A stretch of 64,000 nt of DNA, taken from Cytophagales bacterium (GTDB lineage Bacteria > Bacteroidota > Bacteroidia > Cytophagales > Bernardetiaceae). Below the pieces are notes generated by a model. That model made no database searches, was not told the DNA's origin, and saw only the letters and a program-made list of their open reading frames with translations. Below, piece by piece: positions 8,292-20,516 of the stretch; position 1 is the stretch's first letter; every line of letters begins with the position of its first letter. The position numbers and the translations under genes were made by a program. The DNA lies in NCBI GenBank assembly GCA_013299045.1, contig JAAFJX010000003.1, positions 62,001 through 126,000 of the forward strand, written 5' to 3'.

Positions 8292-9824
8292 TTATTTGCT
8301 AACAGCAGTTTTGCCGTAATACATTTTACCTTCGCCAGTTGGCGCGTTATTTCGCCATACGCCCACGTACTTGTCGCCGTTTGGATAGAGCATAGTGCCT
8401 ACGCCATGGCGCTTATCGGCCAGCCACTGTCCTTCATAACGGCCTTTGTCTGGGTAAATCATTACGCCTTCGCCCTGTATGTGGCCATTTACCCATTGCC
8501 CATTGTAGTAGCTGTTGTCTGTCCAGCGCTGTGAGCCTCCTCCATGTTTTTTGTTATTCAAAAATTGTCCTGAATACACACCGCCTGTTTTCAAATAGAG
8601 CGTTCCTATGCCTGAAAACTTACCATCTTTGAAATTCCCGGTGTATTTTCCGGCTTCGCTGACTTGTTCTCCATAGCCATTTTTGCAGTTTCCTTTCAAA
8701 CAAATCCCGTTGGCGTGGTCAAGAACAGAATAAGCATCATTGAGTTTTATCTCCATGCTTTCAATGCCTTTTCGCGTATTGAAATAAATGAGCAGGTCGT
8801 AACTGCCTTCTCGGTAGTACCAGAGCGTCCCGAAACTTGATTTTTCTTCTTTGAGAGGTTTGCCCATCACATAATGGACGTAGTTCATGTCTCCCGCCAC
8901 TTGTATTTTGTCGGTCAGGGTATGCGAAAAATCCTTAAACCCAATTTTAAAAATGTGGATTTTGTATAGAAAGCCGTAGTCATCAAAGTAAAGGAAGAGT
9001 TTGTCTTGGGCAAAAGCATAGCGCATATAGTCAAAAGCCAACTGAAATTTTTGATAACCGTCTTTGTGGCTTTGCGTGAGGTCTATAATCGTTTTGCTAT
9101 CCTTATGTTTACCGAGTAGGTCGTAAAGATTGTTGGTTTTAAAAAAATTTTTACCTTTGAACTTCCCCTGCTCCCAATAGCCTTCCGTTACTTTACCGTT
9201 GGCCAAAAAGACTTTGCCGTCTCCGTGTCTTTTGCCATTGAGCCAGCCACCTTCGTAGCGGTTGCCGTCCATGTCTGTCCAAACTCCCTTACCACTTTGG
9301 CAGTTTCCGCTTAGGCAGTGCTTAAATCGTATATTCACACGAATCAATTTTGCTTTTAGTCCGTCCCCATTGAATACAAACTGCATATTGGCCAGTGAGT
9401 AATTGTATTCCAACATATTGCTTTTTTCGGCCGAGGGCAAGCCCAGTTTCAAGATAACTATTTCTTTGGTATCAATAAAGGTAACACGCTCTGGCAGACG
9501 GTTTTGGTAAGCTCTAAAGCTAATCTCATTAACCACAAAAGAGCTTCCAAAGAGATAAATACCTTCCAGAAAATTTTCTTTATAAAAATTAAGTTTAACC
9601 CCTTTTTCAGGAAAAGTTAAGGAGTTGGGCGTACTGAGCGTGGTGTTTGGCGTTCCTAATTCATTGACAAAAGTAGCCAAAGCCCTATCAGTCTTGGCTT
9701 TGCCTATAAGCATGAGCAGCTTGTTGCCGTCTGTTGATTGTGTGTGGGCATTGAAGCAAAGCGATAGGCACAGAAAAATTACGAAAATTAATGTATGTGT
9801 TTGAGTATAAGTATCTTTTGCCAT
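8292..9824 (-). CDS. Exported MORN-repeat protein
   Basis: A 510-residue protein with an N-terminal signal peptide (LIFVIFLCLSLCFNAHTQ, cleavage near residue 29). Two groups of MORN repeats are present: about 170-215 (GKGVWTDMDGNRYEGGWLNGKRHG...) and about 385-505, the latter with at least five units of the form YxGxWxxxKxHGxGxxxxPxG. Each group is headed by a matching cysteine motif, CLSGNCQSGKG and CLKGNCKNGYG, so the protein seems to be built from two versions of one module with a beta-rich spacer (about 40-165 and 220-380). MORN repeats often bind lipid or other proteins; the role here is unknown. It converges with the isochorismate synthase gene across 94 bases. Confidence 0.85.
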   Translation of the reverse strand: MAKDTYTQTHTLIFVIFLCLSLCFNAHTQSTDGNKLLMLIGKAKTDRALATFVNELGTPNTTLSTPNSLTFPEKGVKLNFYKENFLEGIYLFGSSFVVNEISFRAYQNRLPERVTFIDTKEIVILKLGLPSAEKSNMLEYNYSLANMQFVFNGDGLKAKLIRVNIRFKHCLSGNCQSGKGVWTDMDGNRYEGGWLNGKRHGDGKVFLANGKVTEGYWEQGKFKGKNFFKTNNLYDLLGKHKDSKTIIDLTQSHKDGYQKFQLAFDYMRYAFAQDKLFLYFDDYGFLYKIHIFKIGFKDFSHTLTDKIQVAGDMNYVHYVMGKPLKEEKSSFGTLWYYREGSYDLLIYFNTRKGIESMEIKLNDAYSVLDHANGICLKGNCKNGYGEQVSEAGKYTGNFKDGKFSGIGTLYLKTGGVYSGQFLNNKKHGGGSQRWTDNSYYNGQWVNGHIQGEGVMIYPDKGRYEGQWLADKRHGVGTMLYPNGDKYVGVWRNNAPTGEGKMYYGKTAVSK

Positions 9825-15178: not shown

Positions 15179-17863
15179 ATGCTTTTCAAGTCCAAATCAA
15201 ACCCCATCAAACCCTACAAGTTCAGAGAACTGAAGATTTATGCTTCAACAGAATGGCTTGCAGACGGACAAAAAGCTTATAGAACTGTTTTTGACTATGC
15301 AGAAGTTTCTTATCTATACGTAGAGCTGTCATTTTATAACAAATTTCTAGACGAAGAAGACTGGAGTGCCAAAGTACAAATTGTGGCCTATCGTATAGAC
15401 CCCAAAACCTCCCGCAAGACGGACAGTATGTGCGAGATTAAAGTGGACTTGAACGCCAGCAAAACAGACCCCTTGTTGTATGTTAGAGAGGGCTGGGGTA
15501 GCCCAGAAAAAAAAGGATTCTGGGGGCCGGGCGAATATATCTGGGAAGCATCTATTGACAGAGAAATATTGGCCACACGCACCTTTCATATTGTTGATTT
15601 TACTTATCCCCTTCGCGATGGGCACGAGTCTATTTTCAGCATTAAAAAAATATTGCTTTATGAAGGTGGCAACAAACCAGCGCCAAAAAACGAGCGCACT
15701 TACCTTAAAACATTCAATAGACTTACTGCCAGATACGTTTGGGTAGAGCTTGAACTAGAAAATGAATCTGTTGATGACTGGACGGCTGAGTTTGCCTTTC
15801 AGTTTTATACGAGCTCAGGGCATCTAAAGGGTAAGACCTCAGAGGTCAAAACATTTTTAGGCAACGATTCTGATAGTGCCATTGTGGTAGAAACAGGCTG
15901 GGGGTCTGAAAACCCCGGTTCATGGCAGATTGGAGACTATACTTTACGCATCACTTGCTTAGATCTACCAATCGCCACGCTTAATTTCAGTGTCGAAGAA
16001 GTAGAAATAAAAGGAGTTATTCCTTATTATGATGCCGATGATGACGAAATTACACAGGGCGTACCTAAAGATGCGGCTAACAATCAAGATGAATCCTTAG
16101 AATCAATTTTTGATAAAATTGACTCTAAAATGGTCGGCATCAAAGCCGTCAAAGACAAGATACACAGCCTAACCAACTACCTTAAATTCATGCAGTTGCG
16201 TAAGGAAAGAAACCTTTACGCAAAGGCCAATTTACATAGCGTACTGCTCGGCAGCCCTGGTACTGGCAAAACGACCATAGCGCGCTTGCTCGCCAAGATA
16301 TACCATCATTTAGGCTTTCTTTCCAGCGGCCATCTTACAGAGGTGAGTCGGGTGGACTTAGTAGCCCAATATATTGGCCAAACCGCCCCAAAAGTAGAAG
16401 AAGTCCTTAACAAGGCCAGAGGAGGGGTACTTTTTATTGACGAAGCCTACTCCTTGGTGCGTGCCGCAGATGACTCTAAAGACTACGGGCATGAAGTCGT
16501 AGAAATGTTCGTCAAGGAAATGTCCGAAGAGAATACAGACCTTGTGATTATTGTGGCGGGTTATGACAAAGAAATGAACTTGTTTTTGAACCATAACCCT
16601 GGCTTTAAGTCCAGATTCGGGCACTTTTTTCATTTTGAGGATTTATTACCGCAAGAGCTTATTGAGGTGGTACAAACTGCTGCACAGCAACAAGATTTAA
16701 TCATTGAAGAGGAAGCACAAAAACTCTTACAAAAAATGATAACCGATGCCTTCCGAAAACGAGACAACTCCTTCGGCAATGCGCGTTACGTCAAGAATTT
16801 ATTAGAAAAAGCGGCCATCAATCAGGGAGTCAGGGTTATCAAGGAAAGAAAGTCTGAAACAGAAGAACTTGACGACAAAACTTTACGCAATATTACGCTC
16901 GCTGATGTAGAAAAAATAGATAGCTTGCAAAAGCGAGCCAAGCCCACTATTCCTATTGATGAAGATTTACTCAAAGAGGCAATCCAAGAGCTACACACCA
17001 TGACAGGGCTACGCGAAGTAAAAACACATATTGCGGACTTAGTTAGCCTGGTGCGTTTTTACAGAGATACTGAAATAAGTGTTTTGCAGCGTTTTTCTTT
17101 ACATACCATTTTTAAAGGAAACCCAGGAACAGGCAAAACCACAGTAGCGCGTATTTTGGCCAAAATTTATAGAGGTTTAGGCATCTTAGAGCGCGGGCAT
17201 TTGGTAGAAACCGACCGACAGGGGCTTGTGGCTGGCTTTGTAGGGCAAACGGCTATTAAAACACGCGAAAAGATAGAGGCCGCCATGGGTGGAGTTTTGT
17301 TTATTGATGAGGCTTATGCACTGGCCTCGGGCCAGAATGAAGGCAATGACTTTGGTAAAGAAGCTGTAGAAGTTTTGCTCAAGCAAATGGAGGAGCATAG
17401 ACACCAGTTGGTGGTGGTGGTAGCTGGCTATACAGACAATATGGATAAGTTTATTGAAATGAACCCTGGTTTAAAGTCCCGTTTTGACCGTAGCATGACG
17501 TTTGAAGACTTTAACATAGAAGAACTTGAGCGTATTGCGCTTGAAATGCTGAAAGCCGAAAATCTTAGCCCTGATGCCGAAGCCTTAGTGTTTCTGCGCG
17601 AACAAATTACTGAACTTTATAACAAACGCGACAAGTATTTTGGCAATGCACGCACTGTTCGGCGTATCATACAAGAAGCTGTACGTAAGCAACATTTACG
17701 TATGGCGCGCATAGATATGCTCCAGCGTACAGCAGACCTACTCAAAACACTTTGCATTGAAGACCTCAGAGCCGTTGATTTTAAAGAGGCTGGTCGTCAG
17801 CGTCGTGGCAAAGTGGGTTTTAGGGTTTCCGACCAGCCCACTCCAAGCCCAAACAATGTTTAA
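15179..17863 (+). CDS. Double AAA+ ATPase (CbbX/SpoVK type) with duplicated N-terminal beta domain
   Basis: An 894-residue protein. Two CbbX/CfxQ-like AAA+ modules are clear. The first has Walker A GSPGTGKTT near residue 358 and Walker B VLFIDEAY near 417. The second has GNPGTGKTT near 647 and VLFIDEAY near 706. Each is followed by the pore/arm motifs and an NARYVKN or NARTVRR sensor-2 block. Ahead lie two similar domains (about 8-140 and 150-285), both with VxLxxxN, a W-A-x pattern and a GWGS...G.W..G.Y motif, which look like tandem Ig-like beta domains; I do not recognise the family. CbbX proteins remodel partner proteins, but no rubisco is here, so the target is unknown. The next gene is an OLD-like ATPase 325 bases on. 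Confidence 0.85.
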   Translation: MLFKSKSNPIKPYKFRELKIYASTEWLADGQKAYRTVFDYAEVSYLYVELSFYNKFLDEEDWSAKVQIVAYRIDPKTSRKTDSMCEIKVDLNASKTDPLLYVREGWGSPEKKGFWGPGEYIWEASIDREILATRTFHIVDFTYPLRDGHESIFSIKKILLYEGGNKPAPKNERTYLKTFNRLTARYVWVELELENESVDDWTAEFAFQFYTSSGHLKGKTSEVKTFLGNDSDSAIVVETGWGSENPGSWQIGDYTLRITCLDLPIATLNFSVEEVEIKGVIPYYDADDDEITQGVPKDAANNQDESLESIFDKIDSKMVGIKAVKDKIHSLTNYLKFMQLRKERNLYAKANLHSVLLGSPGTGKTTIARLLAKIYHHLGFLSSGHLTEVSRVDLVAQYIGQTAPKVEEVLNKARGGVLFIDEAYSLVRAADDSKDYGHEVVEMFVKEMSEENTDLVIIVAGYDKEMNLFLNHNPGFKSRFGHFFHFEDLLPQELIEVVQTAAQQQDLIIEEEAQKLLQKMITDAFRKRDNSFGNARYVKNLLEKAAINQGVRVIKERKSETEELDDKTLRNITLADVEKIDSLQKRAKPTIPIDEDLLKEAIQELHTMTGLREVKTHIADLVSLVRFYRDTEISVLQRFSLHTIFKGNPGTGKTTVARILAKIYRGLGILERGHLVETDRQGLVAGFVGQTAIKTREKIEAAMGGVLFIDEAYALASGQNEGNDFGKEAVEVLLKQMEEHRHQLVVVVAGYTDNMDKFIEMNPGLKSRFDRSMTFEDFNIEELERIALEMLKAENLSPDAEALVFLREQITELYNKRDKYFGNARTVRRIIQEAVRKQHLRMARIDMLQRTADLLKTLCIEDLRAVDFKEAGRQRRGKVGFRVSDQPTPSPNNV

Positions 17864-18020: not shown

Positions 18021-18188
18021 CTTTGTGCATTGTGAGCTACCAGCAGCAAATTATAAAAAAAAGCTAGTCAAAACGAATTAAAATGCTATATTTGGGCATT
18101 CAATACAATTTTTTTGATACATTGTAGCGTTTATTTGCGCCCAGAGAGTTTCTTATAGCATATCACCACACCGTTGAGCCATTTGGAT

Positions 18189-20516
18189 ATGAGGCTGTTA
18201 GCATTCCGAGTTACAAATTTTAGGTCTGTCAAAGACAGTGGCTGGCTACACACCGACCAGCTAAGTTGCCTTGCGGGCGCAAACGAGTCTGGAAAAACCA
18301 ATTTGTTGATGGCGCTCTGGAAGCTAAAACCGGCCAACGACGAGCCTATTAATCCACTTGCAGACTTTCCGCGCAAATATTTTGCCCAGTACCAAAGCAA
18401 GGGGCAAGAACTTACCTTCATTCGCGCTATTTTCCTCTTATCTTTAGAACTTGCTCAGCAAACAAGCCAAGAACTCGGTTTTCTGCCTGTTTTGTGTACA
18501 CGCATACAGGTAGAGCGCCTTTATAGCGGCCAGTATGTAGTTCGCCTACCCATGCTGCCCCTCAACGACTTACTGGCAGTGGTTATCGAGCATTTGCAGA
18601 TGCAGGAACTAAACCACCCTCAGGGAATTCGCCAGAACGCTGCCAAGCATCTGCTGCCAGTCCTAGAAAAGATTGTTCTAGACGAAGAAAGCACCACCGA
18701 TACTCTTTTTGAGGTTATCTCTACCGAGCTAGATGCCTTTGAATATGCCCTCAATACCGAAGACGAAGCGCTGCTGCGGCATCTAACAGATTTACGCTTT
18801 TTGCTCCAACGTTGCCGCGAGTATGCCGACTGCGACCCTATAGAGGGGAAATTGGCCGAAAAAATGCTAGAGAATATTCCTAGCCTGCTTTTTTATAGCG
18901 ATTATGGCAACTTAGACTCCGAAATATATTTGCCACACGTTGTAGAAAACCTAGAACGAAAAGACCTCAGTTTTAAAGAAAAAGCCAAAGTAAGAACCTT
19001 AAAGGTGCTTTTTGACCTGCTCGGTATGCAGCCACAAGCCATGCTGCCCACCGAAGCCAATGCCCAAAACTTAAAAAAGCACGCCCAAGACAACCGCCAA
19101 AAGGAGGTACTTTTGCAAGCCGCTTCGCAGCAAATCAGCGAAAAGTTCAACGCTTGGTGGAGGCAAAGCCGTTATAAGTTCCGCTTCCAGAACGACGGCT
19201 TTTTGTTCCGAATTTGGGTAAGCGACGAGCTCCGGCAGGAAGAAGTAGAACTAGAAAATCGCAGCCGCGGACTTCAATGGTTTTTTAGTTTCTTTCTGGT
19301 TTTTCTTACAGAAAGTAAAGCGGCTTATAGCAATTGCATTCTGCTACTGGACGAAGCCGGTCTCTCTTTGCACCCACTCGCGCAACGCGACCTTTTGGGA
19401 GTTTTTACGCGCCTATCGGTCAAAAACCAAATTATTTATACGACCCATTCGCCTTTTTTGGTGGATTCTAGCCGTTTGGTGGACGCAGGTACGGTTTATG
19501 TAAACCAAGAAGGGTACACCTCCCTAAACTACGGCTACGGAAACGGCCTCAAACAAGCGCGAAAGTCCATGTATCCGCTTTATTCTGCTCTCAATGCCCA
19601 AATTATGGAAGCCCTTACACCGCGCGTGGAGGTGGTTTTGGTAGAAGGGAGCTTAGAGCAAATTGTGTTGCTGGCTTTTAAAAATGCCCTGATTCGTTAC
19701 GGTCTTTTTAGACCCCTGCGCGACGTTCTTTTTGTGCCTTTTAGCCATTTGCAGAGCCTAGAGCGAATTTGTAGCCTACTTGGGCTGCCTCAAGACGAAG
19801 CCCCTCTTCTCCTGTTGCTTTCCAAACCACAAGAGGCTGATTTGGCCTGGTTACAGAGCAAATACAGAGAGCAATCAGAACGCTTTTATGCCCCCTCTGC
19901 CCCAAATGATTACAACGGCTGGGCTGGGCTTTTTCCTGAAAGTTGGCTCAAAGAAGAACTACAAGCCTTGTTAGAAGCCCAAGAAGTTGAAGCCAAATTT
20001 AAGCCCAAAGACCCTAAAAATAGCCTGACCGAATTTGAACAATTCCAAGCCAAACAAAAAATAGAGTGGCGCTTTAATTGGCAGCTAGCCCTAGTCAATA
20101 AACTTACTAAAAGGCTTGAACAAGAAAATGATGCAGAGATTTTAAACGCCATTTTAACAAACATATTGCCTATTTTCAAAGCCATTCCTCAGTCTGAAGT
20201 GCTGCTTGCTCCTAAGGGCACTGCATCGGCTGGTACAGACTCTTTTGGAACTTTGTTACAAAAAGTAAAATCAAAAATTGCATTTTTTGAAGATGAACTA
20301 GAAGATAACAGCTCAGCAGAAGCTGCCAAGCATCTCAAAGATATGCAAAAGCTCAAAAAGGGCTTAGAAAAGGTGGAAAACAGCGCCCAGATGCAAGAAT
20401 CTGGTGTTTATGAGCGCTTACATAAGTTTCAGAAATTTTTGAAAGGCGAAGGCATTTTGATTGATGAAGACATAGCCCAAGATGCCTTGGAGTTGTCTGA
20501 AAAGCTGATGGCTTAA
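18189..20516 (+). CDS. OLD-family-like ATPase with degenerate Toprim region
   Basis: A 775-residue protein. The N-terminus has an SMC/OLD-type ATPase start, FRVTNFRSVKDSG, and Walker A GANESGKTN. A long helical middle follows, then signature and Walker B text NRSRGLQWFFSFFLVF...LLLDEAGLSLHPLAQ and the H-loop IIYTTHSPFLVD. This matches overcoming-lysogenization-defect nucleases. The usual Toprim domain follows at about residue 480: LVEGSLEQIVLLAF keeps the glutamate, but the later DxD strand reads LLLLLSKPQEADL, so the metal-binding aspartates seem lost. It may therefore act as an ATPase without nuclease activity. The C-terminal 200 residues are helical. The frame opens with TTG at 18174; ATG 18189 (MRLLAFRV) is the natural start. 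Confidence 0.8.
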   Translation: MRLLAFRVTNFRSVKDSGWLHTDQLSCLAGANESGKTNLLMALWKLKPANDEPINPLADFPRKYFAQYQSKGQELTFIRAIFLLSLELAQQTSQELGFLPVLCTRIQVERLYSGQYVVRLPMLPLNDLLAVVIEHLQMQELNHPQGIRQNAAKHLLPVLEKIVLDEESTTDTLFEVISTELDAFEYALNTEDEALLRHLTDLRFLLQRCREYADCDPIEGKLAEKMLENIPSLLFYSDYGNLDSEIYLPHVVENLERKDLSFKEKAKVRTLKVLFDLLGMQPQAMLPTEANAQNLKKHAQDNRQKEVLLQAASQQISEKFNAWWRQSRYKFRFQNDGFLFRIWVSDELRQEEVELENRSRGLQWFFSFFLVFLTESKAAYSNCILLLDEAGLSLHPLAQRDLLGVFTRLSVKNQIIYTTHSPFLVDSSRLVDAGTVYVNQEGYTSLNYGYGNGLKQARKSMYPLYSALNAQIMEALTPRVEVVLVEGSLEQIVLLAFKNALIRYGLFRPLRDVLFVPFSHLQSLERICSLLGLPQDEAPLLLLLSKPQEADLAWLQSKYREQSERFYAPSAPNDYNGWAGLFPESWLKEELQALLEAQEVEAKFKPKDPKNSLTEFEQFQAKQKIEWRFNWQLALVNKLTKRLEQENDAEILNAILTNILPIFKAIPQSEVLLAPKGTASAGTDSFGTLLQKVKSKIAFFEDELEDNSSAEAAKHLKDMQKLKKGLEKVENSAQMQESGVYERLHKFQKFLKGEGILIDEDIAQDALELSEKLMA

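Follow-up and report, generated by a model that had tools for sequence, protein, structure and literature searches.

What does a bacterial protein do that joins two ATPase units resembling CbbX to a tandem pair of unfamiliar beta domains? The question is raised by one gene (positions 15179–17863, forward strand) in a 64,000-nucleotide stretch of a Cytophagales genome, the whole of which is called the window here. The encoded protein of 894 amino acids probably acts in the cytosol, as an AAA+ remodelling chaperone (SpoVK/CbbX/EccA clade) that serves a specific client and carries a new recognition domain. The AAA+ part is of a known kind. What is apparently new, in that no description was found in the open-licence literature searched, is the front end with its internal duplication, together with the forms with two or three AAA+ units and the stand-alone copies. 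A beta-prism is mentioned for some CbbX-like proteins in PMC10659427; the model obtained here matches immunoglobulin-like (Ig-like) sandwiches, and an earlier notice of the family is possible. The parts of the gene are given below with the evidence for each; motif and conservation counts refer to an alignment of 55 sequences.

15179..17863, + strand: whole gene, 894-amino-acid protein with two beta domains and two AAA+ units; uninterrupted open reading frame from ATG to stop
15215..15601, + strand (residues 13–141): beta domain 1, Ig-like beta-sandwich of eight strands; AlphaFold2 model, hhalign, strand comparison
15614..16006, + strand (residues 146–276): beta domain 2, second copy of beta domain 1; AlphaFold2 model, hhalign, strand comparison
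16097..16933, + strand (residues ~307–585): AAA+ unit 1 (AAA1), SpoVK/CbbX/EccA clade; Pfam, NCBIfam, alignments, tree
16250..16273, + strand: AAA1 Walker A, GSPGTGKT (358–365); K364 and T365 in 55/55 sequences
16367..16387, + strand: AAA1 pore-loop-1-like stretch, QYIGQTA (397–403); position 398 is Y in 47/55 and F in 8/55
16430..16450, + strand: AAA1 Walker B, LFIDEAY (418–424); D421 and E422 in 55/55
16961..17788, + strand (residues ~595–870): AAA+ unit 2 (AAA2); Pfam, NCBIfam, alignments, tree
17117..17140, + strand: AAA2 Walker A, GNPGTGKT (647–654); K653 and T654 in 55/55
17234..17254, + strand: AAA2 pore-loop-1-like stretch, GFVGQTA (686–692); F (29/55), Y (25/55) or W (1/55) at position 687
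17297..17317, + strand: AAA2 Walker B, LFIDEAY (707–713); D710 and E711 in 55/55

The stretches QYIGQTA and GFVGQTA are what we take to be pore loop 1 of AAA1 and AAA2. No signal peptide was seen at the start of the protein, as judged by eye. A genome search of the source genome (4.06 Mb, 99.8% complete) returned one full-length copy; two other matches were weak and lay over AAA+ stretches (33% and 29% identity). The mean frequency of the majority residue was 57–68% across the domains (beta-1 65%, beta-2 57%) and 23% in the linker that follows the beta pair.

The first-pass annotation had read the C-terminal part as two CbbX-like ATPases, and this was borne out. PF00004 and AAA_lid_6 were each matched twice, once per unit, and the closest solved sequences were CbbX (E 1e-56 for AAA1, E 7e-53 for AAA2) and EccA1 (E 2e-40 and E 4e-47, respectively). 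In a Foldseek search with the full-length model, CbbX structures scored best, followed by the double-ring proteins Drg1 and Cdc48/p97. The signatures given for the SpoVK/CbbX/EccA clade in PMC10659427 are a GY at sensor-1, an asparagine that precedes the first arginine finger by four residues and a second arginine finger in sensor-2. The sensor-1 signature is present as AGY at residues 460–462 and 749–751, with the tyrosine in 55/55 sequences in both units. For the asparagine signature the picture is mixed: N473 and N762 were found in 55/55, but position N+4 was mostly lysine (AAA1: 46 K, 8 R, 1 S; AAA2: 34 K, 10 R, others), and an arginine stood at N+6 in 55/55. The second arginine finger is R536 and R825, each in a GNAR stretch and present in 55/55, where GNAR was assigned to sensor-2 by alignment with FANAR of CbbX. 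AAA1 and AAA2 both fall within the SpoVK/CbbX/EccA clade. Since Walker A and B, the GY of sensor-1, the arginine at N+6 and the GNAR arginine were identical in all 55 sequences, both units also look active.

Within the clade, the protein did not coincide with any of the named members. SpoVK, the sporulation chaperone for MurG, was the best NCBIfam match of both units, and PMC10659427 places it in a clade of dedicated chaperones. According to the same source, SpoVK is reported only from Firmicutes that sporulate, and its N-terminal domain is short. Each unit of the window protein stayed under the equivalog cut-off of TIGR02881 (253 and 267 bits against 423); the whole protein exceeded it (505.6 bits) because the scores of the two units add up. 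EccA, of type VII secretion, shares the clade, and relatives of the window protein described below have TPR-like repeats in front (below Pfam cut-offs). The window protein itself has no N-terminal TPR and did not reach the equivalog cut-off of EccA (TIGR03922, 427.6 bits against 467). It also fell outside EccA in an unrooted tree of 85 AAA+ domains, in which the references were plasmid-borne, included CbbX and EccA, and held no verified Bacillus SpoVK. All of these references lay outside the AAA1 and AAA2 groups, and those of CbbX formed a clade of their own.

This position in the tree also bears on the reading of the protein as a true CbbX, a rubisco activase, to which we give practically no credence. 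The AAA+ core and lid do resemble those of CbbX, the red-type rubisco activase (3syk, 3zuh), with 37–39% identity in Foldseek alignments and the same set of motifs. However, the units scored only 237 and 213 bits with TIGR02880 (435.5 bits for the whole protein), below the equivalog cut-off of 459, and CbbX has one AAA+ unit and no beta domains where the window protein has two of each. The first-pass annotation had described the protein as occurring without rubisco. In agreement, the rubisco large subunit (PF00016) was not found in the source genome, in a search whose control was positive in 5/14 genomes. In the three plasmid records examined the CbbX gene adjoins rubisco, unlike the window gene.

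Two further likenesses concern layout. Cdc48/p97 and Drg1, the next-best Foldseek matches, likewise place an N-terminal domain ahead of a pair of AAA+ units. They are another AAA+ branch with a different N-domain, so the likeness is one of layout only. A protein encoded on a Streptomyces plasmid (L265:984-4292) has two AAA+ units of the clade behind N-terminal beta structure, annotated as a right-handed parallel beta-helix. Its own two units group together (100/91), so its doubling was probably a separate event.

The N-terminal region had been proposed to be an internal duplication with a repeated GWGS pattern. The motif was indeed present twice, at residues 105–108 and 240–243. With repeats taken from the 59-sequence alignment A2, hhalign aligned repeat 1 with repeat 2 at a probability of 98.9 over 119 columns (20% identity). 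The AlphaFold2 model of the N-terminus, also built from a 59-sequence alignment, had a mean predicted local distance difference test score (pLDDT) of 93.1 and a predicted template modelling score (pTM) of 0.86. It consisted of two all-beta domains with eight strands each, whose borders were refined to residues ~13–139 (beta-1) and ~153–273 (beta-2). A mismatch of the two halves was looked for as the result that would speak against duplication; instead, the strands of half 1 paired one to one with those of half 2, and the strand or non-strand state was the same at 112/119 aligned positions. This agreement, which is a match of topology in register and not a root-mean-square deviation (rmsd), fell to 35–76% when the partner was slid by 2 to 12 residues. 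Given the hhalign result together with the one-to-one strand pairing, the duplication is considered real.

When 34 single domains were placed in a tree, the beta-1 copies (100/99) and the beta-2 copies (99/99) of seven double-form proteins, i.e. proteins with two beta domains and two AAA+ units like that of the window, formed separate clades. The duplication is therefore older than the spread of the sampled family. Beta-2 of the window (15614-16006) sat on a long branch (1.27, where its nearest relative had 0.07), and the second domain seems to be fast-evolving in this lineage.

The fold of the model is of a common type. VIA-align returned Ig-like sandwiches at tied Z scores of about 10 (~100–110 residues, rmsd 2.1–3.3), among them the Wzt O-antigen carbohydrate-binding domain, AlkC and Ig-like domains of GH2 glycosidases. 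Ig-like folds are common, and a Z score near 10 here marks the fold and says nothing certain about function. The top Foldseek matches of the N-terminal model as a whole were RbmA and factor XIII tails, with query template modelling scores of ~0.25–0.31, which signify only tandem Ig-like domains. A viral structure library gave no informative match.

The sequence searches were in line with the earlier statement that these domains belong to no known family. For residues 1–290, no family was found in Pfam, NCBIfam or PHROGs, and no PDB sequence at E 10; the A4 profile of the beta domain reached a best E of 0.56 against PDB. When the 34 domain copies were searched against Pfam, 10 stray matches were obtained, each from a single copy, the best at E 0.0021 (DUF3859). 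One distant 661-amino-acid protein with two beta copies (L183) matched DUF3859 (PF12975) with 18.2 bits against a cut-off of 24. It also matched PapC_N (PF13954) at E 4.7e-5 over 32 residues, with 23.8 bits against a cut-off of 27. A search for DUF3859 matched 0/198 genomes and 0/14 controls, so there was no sequence for a profile comparison. The beta-sandwich domain is apparently undescribed and, going by these searches, uncovered by any Pfam model tested.

The double form is widespread in Bacteroidota. In the order of the window, 54/194 genomes had a match below 1e-200, two of which (G096 and G124) were pieces at contig ends, and G121, a genome from the window's own genus, carried a copy with 75% identity. 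Three further genomes of the 194 (G061, G064 and G144) combine the beta pair with a single AAA+ unit. Public genomes, scanned with the alignment of the N-terminal region, yielded at least 464 confirmed relatives, of which the best 80 loci were analysed. The labels of these loci name groups of Bacteroidota, among them Cytophagales, Saprospiraceae and Chitinophagales, plus one metagenome-assembled genome labelled 'Ignavibacteriales'. They held 81 beta-bearing open reading frames; in 79 the order was beta-beta-AAA1-AAA2, three of these being truncated at contig ends, and AAA1 was missing from the other two. One Saprospiraceae contig carried tandem double-form copies (L085:3150-5765 and L085:7968-10616), with 30% and 43% identity to the window protein in the beta region. 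No beta-domain match was obtained in the phages and plasmids searched. In viral contigs, 31 stretches fitted a pattern and none was a relative; carriage as phage or plasmid cargo was ruled out on the absence of the beta pair from these three collections.

AAA+ machines serve contractile injection systems, and a role as a ClpV-like recycler was weighed against this distribution. A match to the sheath at E 0.001 or better occurred in 60/194 genomes of the order (33 over the Pfam cut-off), the source genome included. However, it was found in 14/54 carriers of the double form versus 46/140 other genomes, i.e. without enrichment, and we regard such a role as very improbable.

The first-pass annotation had suggested a search for the N-terminal domain in other proteins, and several such proteins were found. 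Across the phylum, 27 of 395 genomes were positive with the N-terminal profile; by frame length, 8 of these encode either the double form or the variant of it with a single AAA+ unit, and 19 encode other proteins. In one class of the phylum, 46 of 197 genomes were positive. Of these, 29 had a triple form with one beta domain and three AAA+ units (shortened copies in G321 and G272 included), 15 had the double form and 2 had a stand-alone pair only; none had both the triple and the double form. Among the 15 double-form genomes, 10 were fetched and checked, and 5 were assigned by frame length and two matches.

The triple form is a protein of ~1,300 amino acids with N-terminal TPR-like repeats, one beta domain and three AAA+ units of the clade. 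In the two triple-form proteins scanned (L184 and L192), the repeats matched Pfam TPR models at E ~1e-5, under the cut-offs. By hhalign, its single beta domain was about as close to repeat 1 of the double form (probability 98.6) as to repeat 2 (98.2), and in the single-domain tree beta-1 and beta-2 of the double form grouped together with weak support (83/74). In the AAA+ tree, AAA1 and AAA2 of the double form paired as sisters with unit 1 (99/96) and unit 2 (100/96), respectively, of the triple form. Four single-AAA proteins (L067, L068, L112 and L119) keep unit 2, and a fifth (L069) keeps unit 1. From these relationships the family appears to go back to a single old protein, with gains or losses of AAA+ units, TPR-like repeats and beta copies whose direction is not settled by the unrooted tree. 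One triple-form gene lies directly after groES-groEL (L186:9332-13177); as searched, both Walker motifs were kept in its AAA1 alone, and the other rings are possible pseudo-ATPases.

The beta domain also occurred without any ATPase. Five proteins of 275–306 amino acids (L181, L182, L199, L249 and L250) consist of two beta domains, and a 153-amino-acid protein (L198) had one weak match to the beta profile (E 1.4e-6). Signal-peptide inspection among the stand-alone beta proteins covered L181 and the 661-amino-acid L183, both of which have a signal-peptide-like start by eye. In the two-beta proteins the domain may work outside the cytosol. Three of them have 278 amino acids (L181:9026-9862, L182:9475-10311 and L199:37-873); a Kelch-repeat gene was seen near the one in L181, and TsaD/MltG-like genes (names by eye) were seen near these proteins.

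How would the window protein work as a remodelling chaperone? We infer the client and the mechanism as follows. The double form would probably be a hexamer in which the ATPase units form two stacked rings. The tandem Ig-like domains would stand out on the AAA1 side, where they would recognise a single conserved client or complex, and the aromatic pore loops of both rings would pull an exposed tail or loop of that client. Such pulling would activate, assemble or release the client rather than degrade it. Characterised members of the clade are described in PMC10659427 as dedicated chaperones with varied N-terminal substrate-recruiting domains and with no protease association found, and the remodelling reading fits them for this reason. 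The window protein fits this picture of the clade: its two ATPase units are intact and would suit two stacked rings, its N-terminal module is conserved and stands where a recruiting domain would, and the linker between them is poorly conserved. The earlier proposal of a remodelling factor with a new target-binding front end therefore agrees with what is described for the clade there; support for it is partial, as the searches turned up no client and ATPase-free proteins carry the beta domain too.

Neighbouring genes gave a hint for some triple-form genes, of which 33 loci in 31 genomes were inspected. Genes were grouped by BLAST clustering, and one representative each was checked with Pfam (L190 for the ABC pair, L184 for DUF2807 and L186 for Cpn60/GroEL). 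In 4/33 loci, from three genera (L186, L192, L200 and L232), groEL lay 110–133 bp upstream on the same strand. It lay 1.5 kb upstream in L193 (a fourth genus) and 7.9 kb upstream in L188, and groES preceded groEL in L186, L192, L193 and L200. The adjacency of groEL agrees with a folding role.

Other neighbours of the triple form point to service for membrane or envelope complexes, such as transporter assembly or envelope stress, a reading that seems unlikely to us for the family. An ATP-binding cassette (ABC) ATPase and a PF16949 permease followed on the same strand in 18/33 loci (14 in host family f36, 4 in f54). The ABC gene lay at −40 to +130 bp in 17/18 and at 606 bp, behind a shortened gene, in one. 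A divergent DUF2807-type gene stood just upstream in 19/33 loci; PMC11237479 assigns DUF2807 to the Toastrack domain set, which is linked to envelope stress. However, the divergent pairing was limited to two host families (f36 and f65), and PF16949 was found in 0/194 genomes of the window's order (control positive in 1/14). The ABC/permease pair was also absent from the shared neighbours listed for the double form in the sets of 39 and 80 neighbourhoods. With 0/194 genomes matching, the PF16949 transporter is neither a universal client nor a client of the double form in this order, and an ABC exporter was rejected as such for the order.

For the double form, no conserved operon partner stood out. 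A given neighbour gene was common to at most 4/39 neighbourhoods in a first set (three of which, L043–L045, lacked beta domains) and to at most 10/80 of the best loci, there on the opposite strand and at varied distance. In 10 further loci of another class, the shared-gene clusters listed covered at most 3/10. The ferredoxin-, UbiA-, Maf- and HAD-like genes that recurred (names by eye; at most 10/80, opposite strand, ~0.1–6 kb away) look like chromosomal backbone. Nearest to an operon arrangement in the 80 loci was a small membrane-type protein of 117–126 amino acids, encoded 6–13 bp downstream on the same strand in 5/80 (L088, L092, L113, L120 and L126), which is a possible partner.

Several of these results weigh against the chaperone reading. 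Because no gene neighbour of the double form is conserved in the 39 or the 80 loci, no client can be named for it. The link to groEL was confined to host family f54 of the triple form, and 28/33 loci had no groEL within 1.5 kb. The full-length model had a pTM of 0.42, so the relative arrangement of the domains is not fixed by it. Finally, because the beta domain also occurs in small ATPase-free proteins, it is not itself tied to remodelling and need not be a client reader.

The last point leads to an alternative that we regard as possible, with less confidence than the chaperone reading: the beta pair would be an oligomerisation or scaffold module, or a membrane or glycan anchor, and the choice of client would be made in the AAA+ pore. 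The ATPase-free pairs and L183, with the signal-peptide-like starts mentioned above, are in its favour, as are the carbohydrate-binding Wzt domain and the glycosidase domains among the tied best structural matches. Those matches mark a common fold and not a function, as stated above. Moreover, the beta domain stood immediately N-terminal of the AAA+ part in 81/81 beta-bearing open reading frames, which is the usual place of a recruiting domain in the clade according to PMC10659427. The client-specific remodelling chaperone is the reading that we retain.

A wider version of the chaperone reading is offered with considerable doubt. Bacteroidota and relatives would have an undescribed lineage of multi-tier AAA+ chaperones, with two or three stacked rings and a new Ig-like client-reading domain. 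It would be a bacterial functional counterpart of Cdc48/p97 and, in the lineages where it is embedded in the GroESL operon, would belong to the general folding network. A widespread family is added to a chaperone clade with few members (CbbX, SpoVK and EccA) of known client or system. The series of one beta domain with three AAA+ units, two with two and two with one makes the roles of extra rings and reader domains testable, and identification of the client would reveal a remodelling step conserved in a large phylum.

Two other genes of the window were recorded. The next gene downstream (18174-20516, + strand) encodes a 780-amino-acid OLD-like ATPase, possibly of defence type (PADLOC matches AriA, AbiLi and Old, best E 4e-20). 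It was rejected as a partner, being absent from the shared neighbours listed for the 39 neighbourhoods. At 8292-9824 on the − strand, a protein with repeated GxYxGxWxxGxxxGxG stretches is encoded, which appeared MORN-repeat-like by eye.

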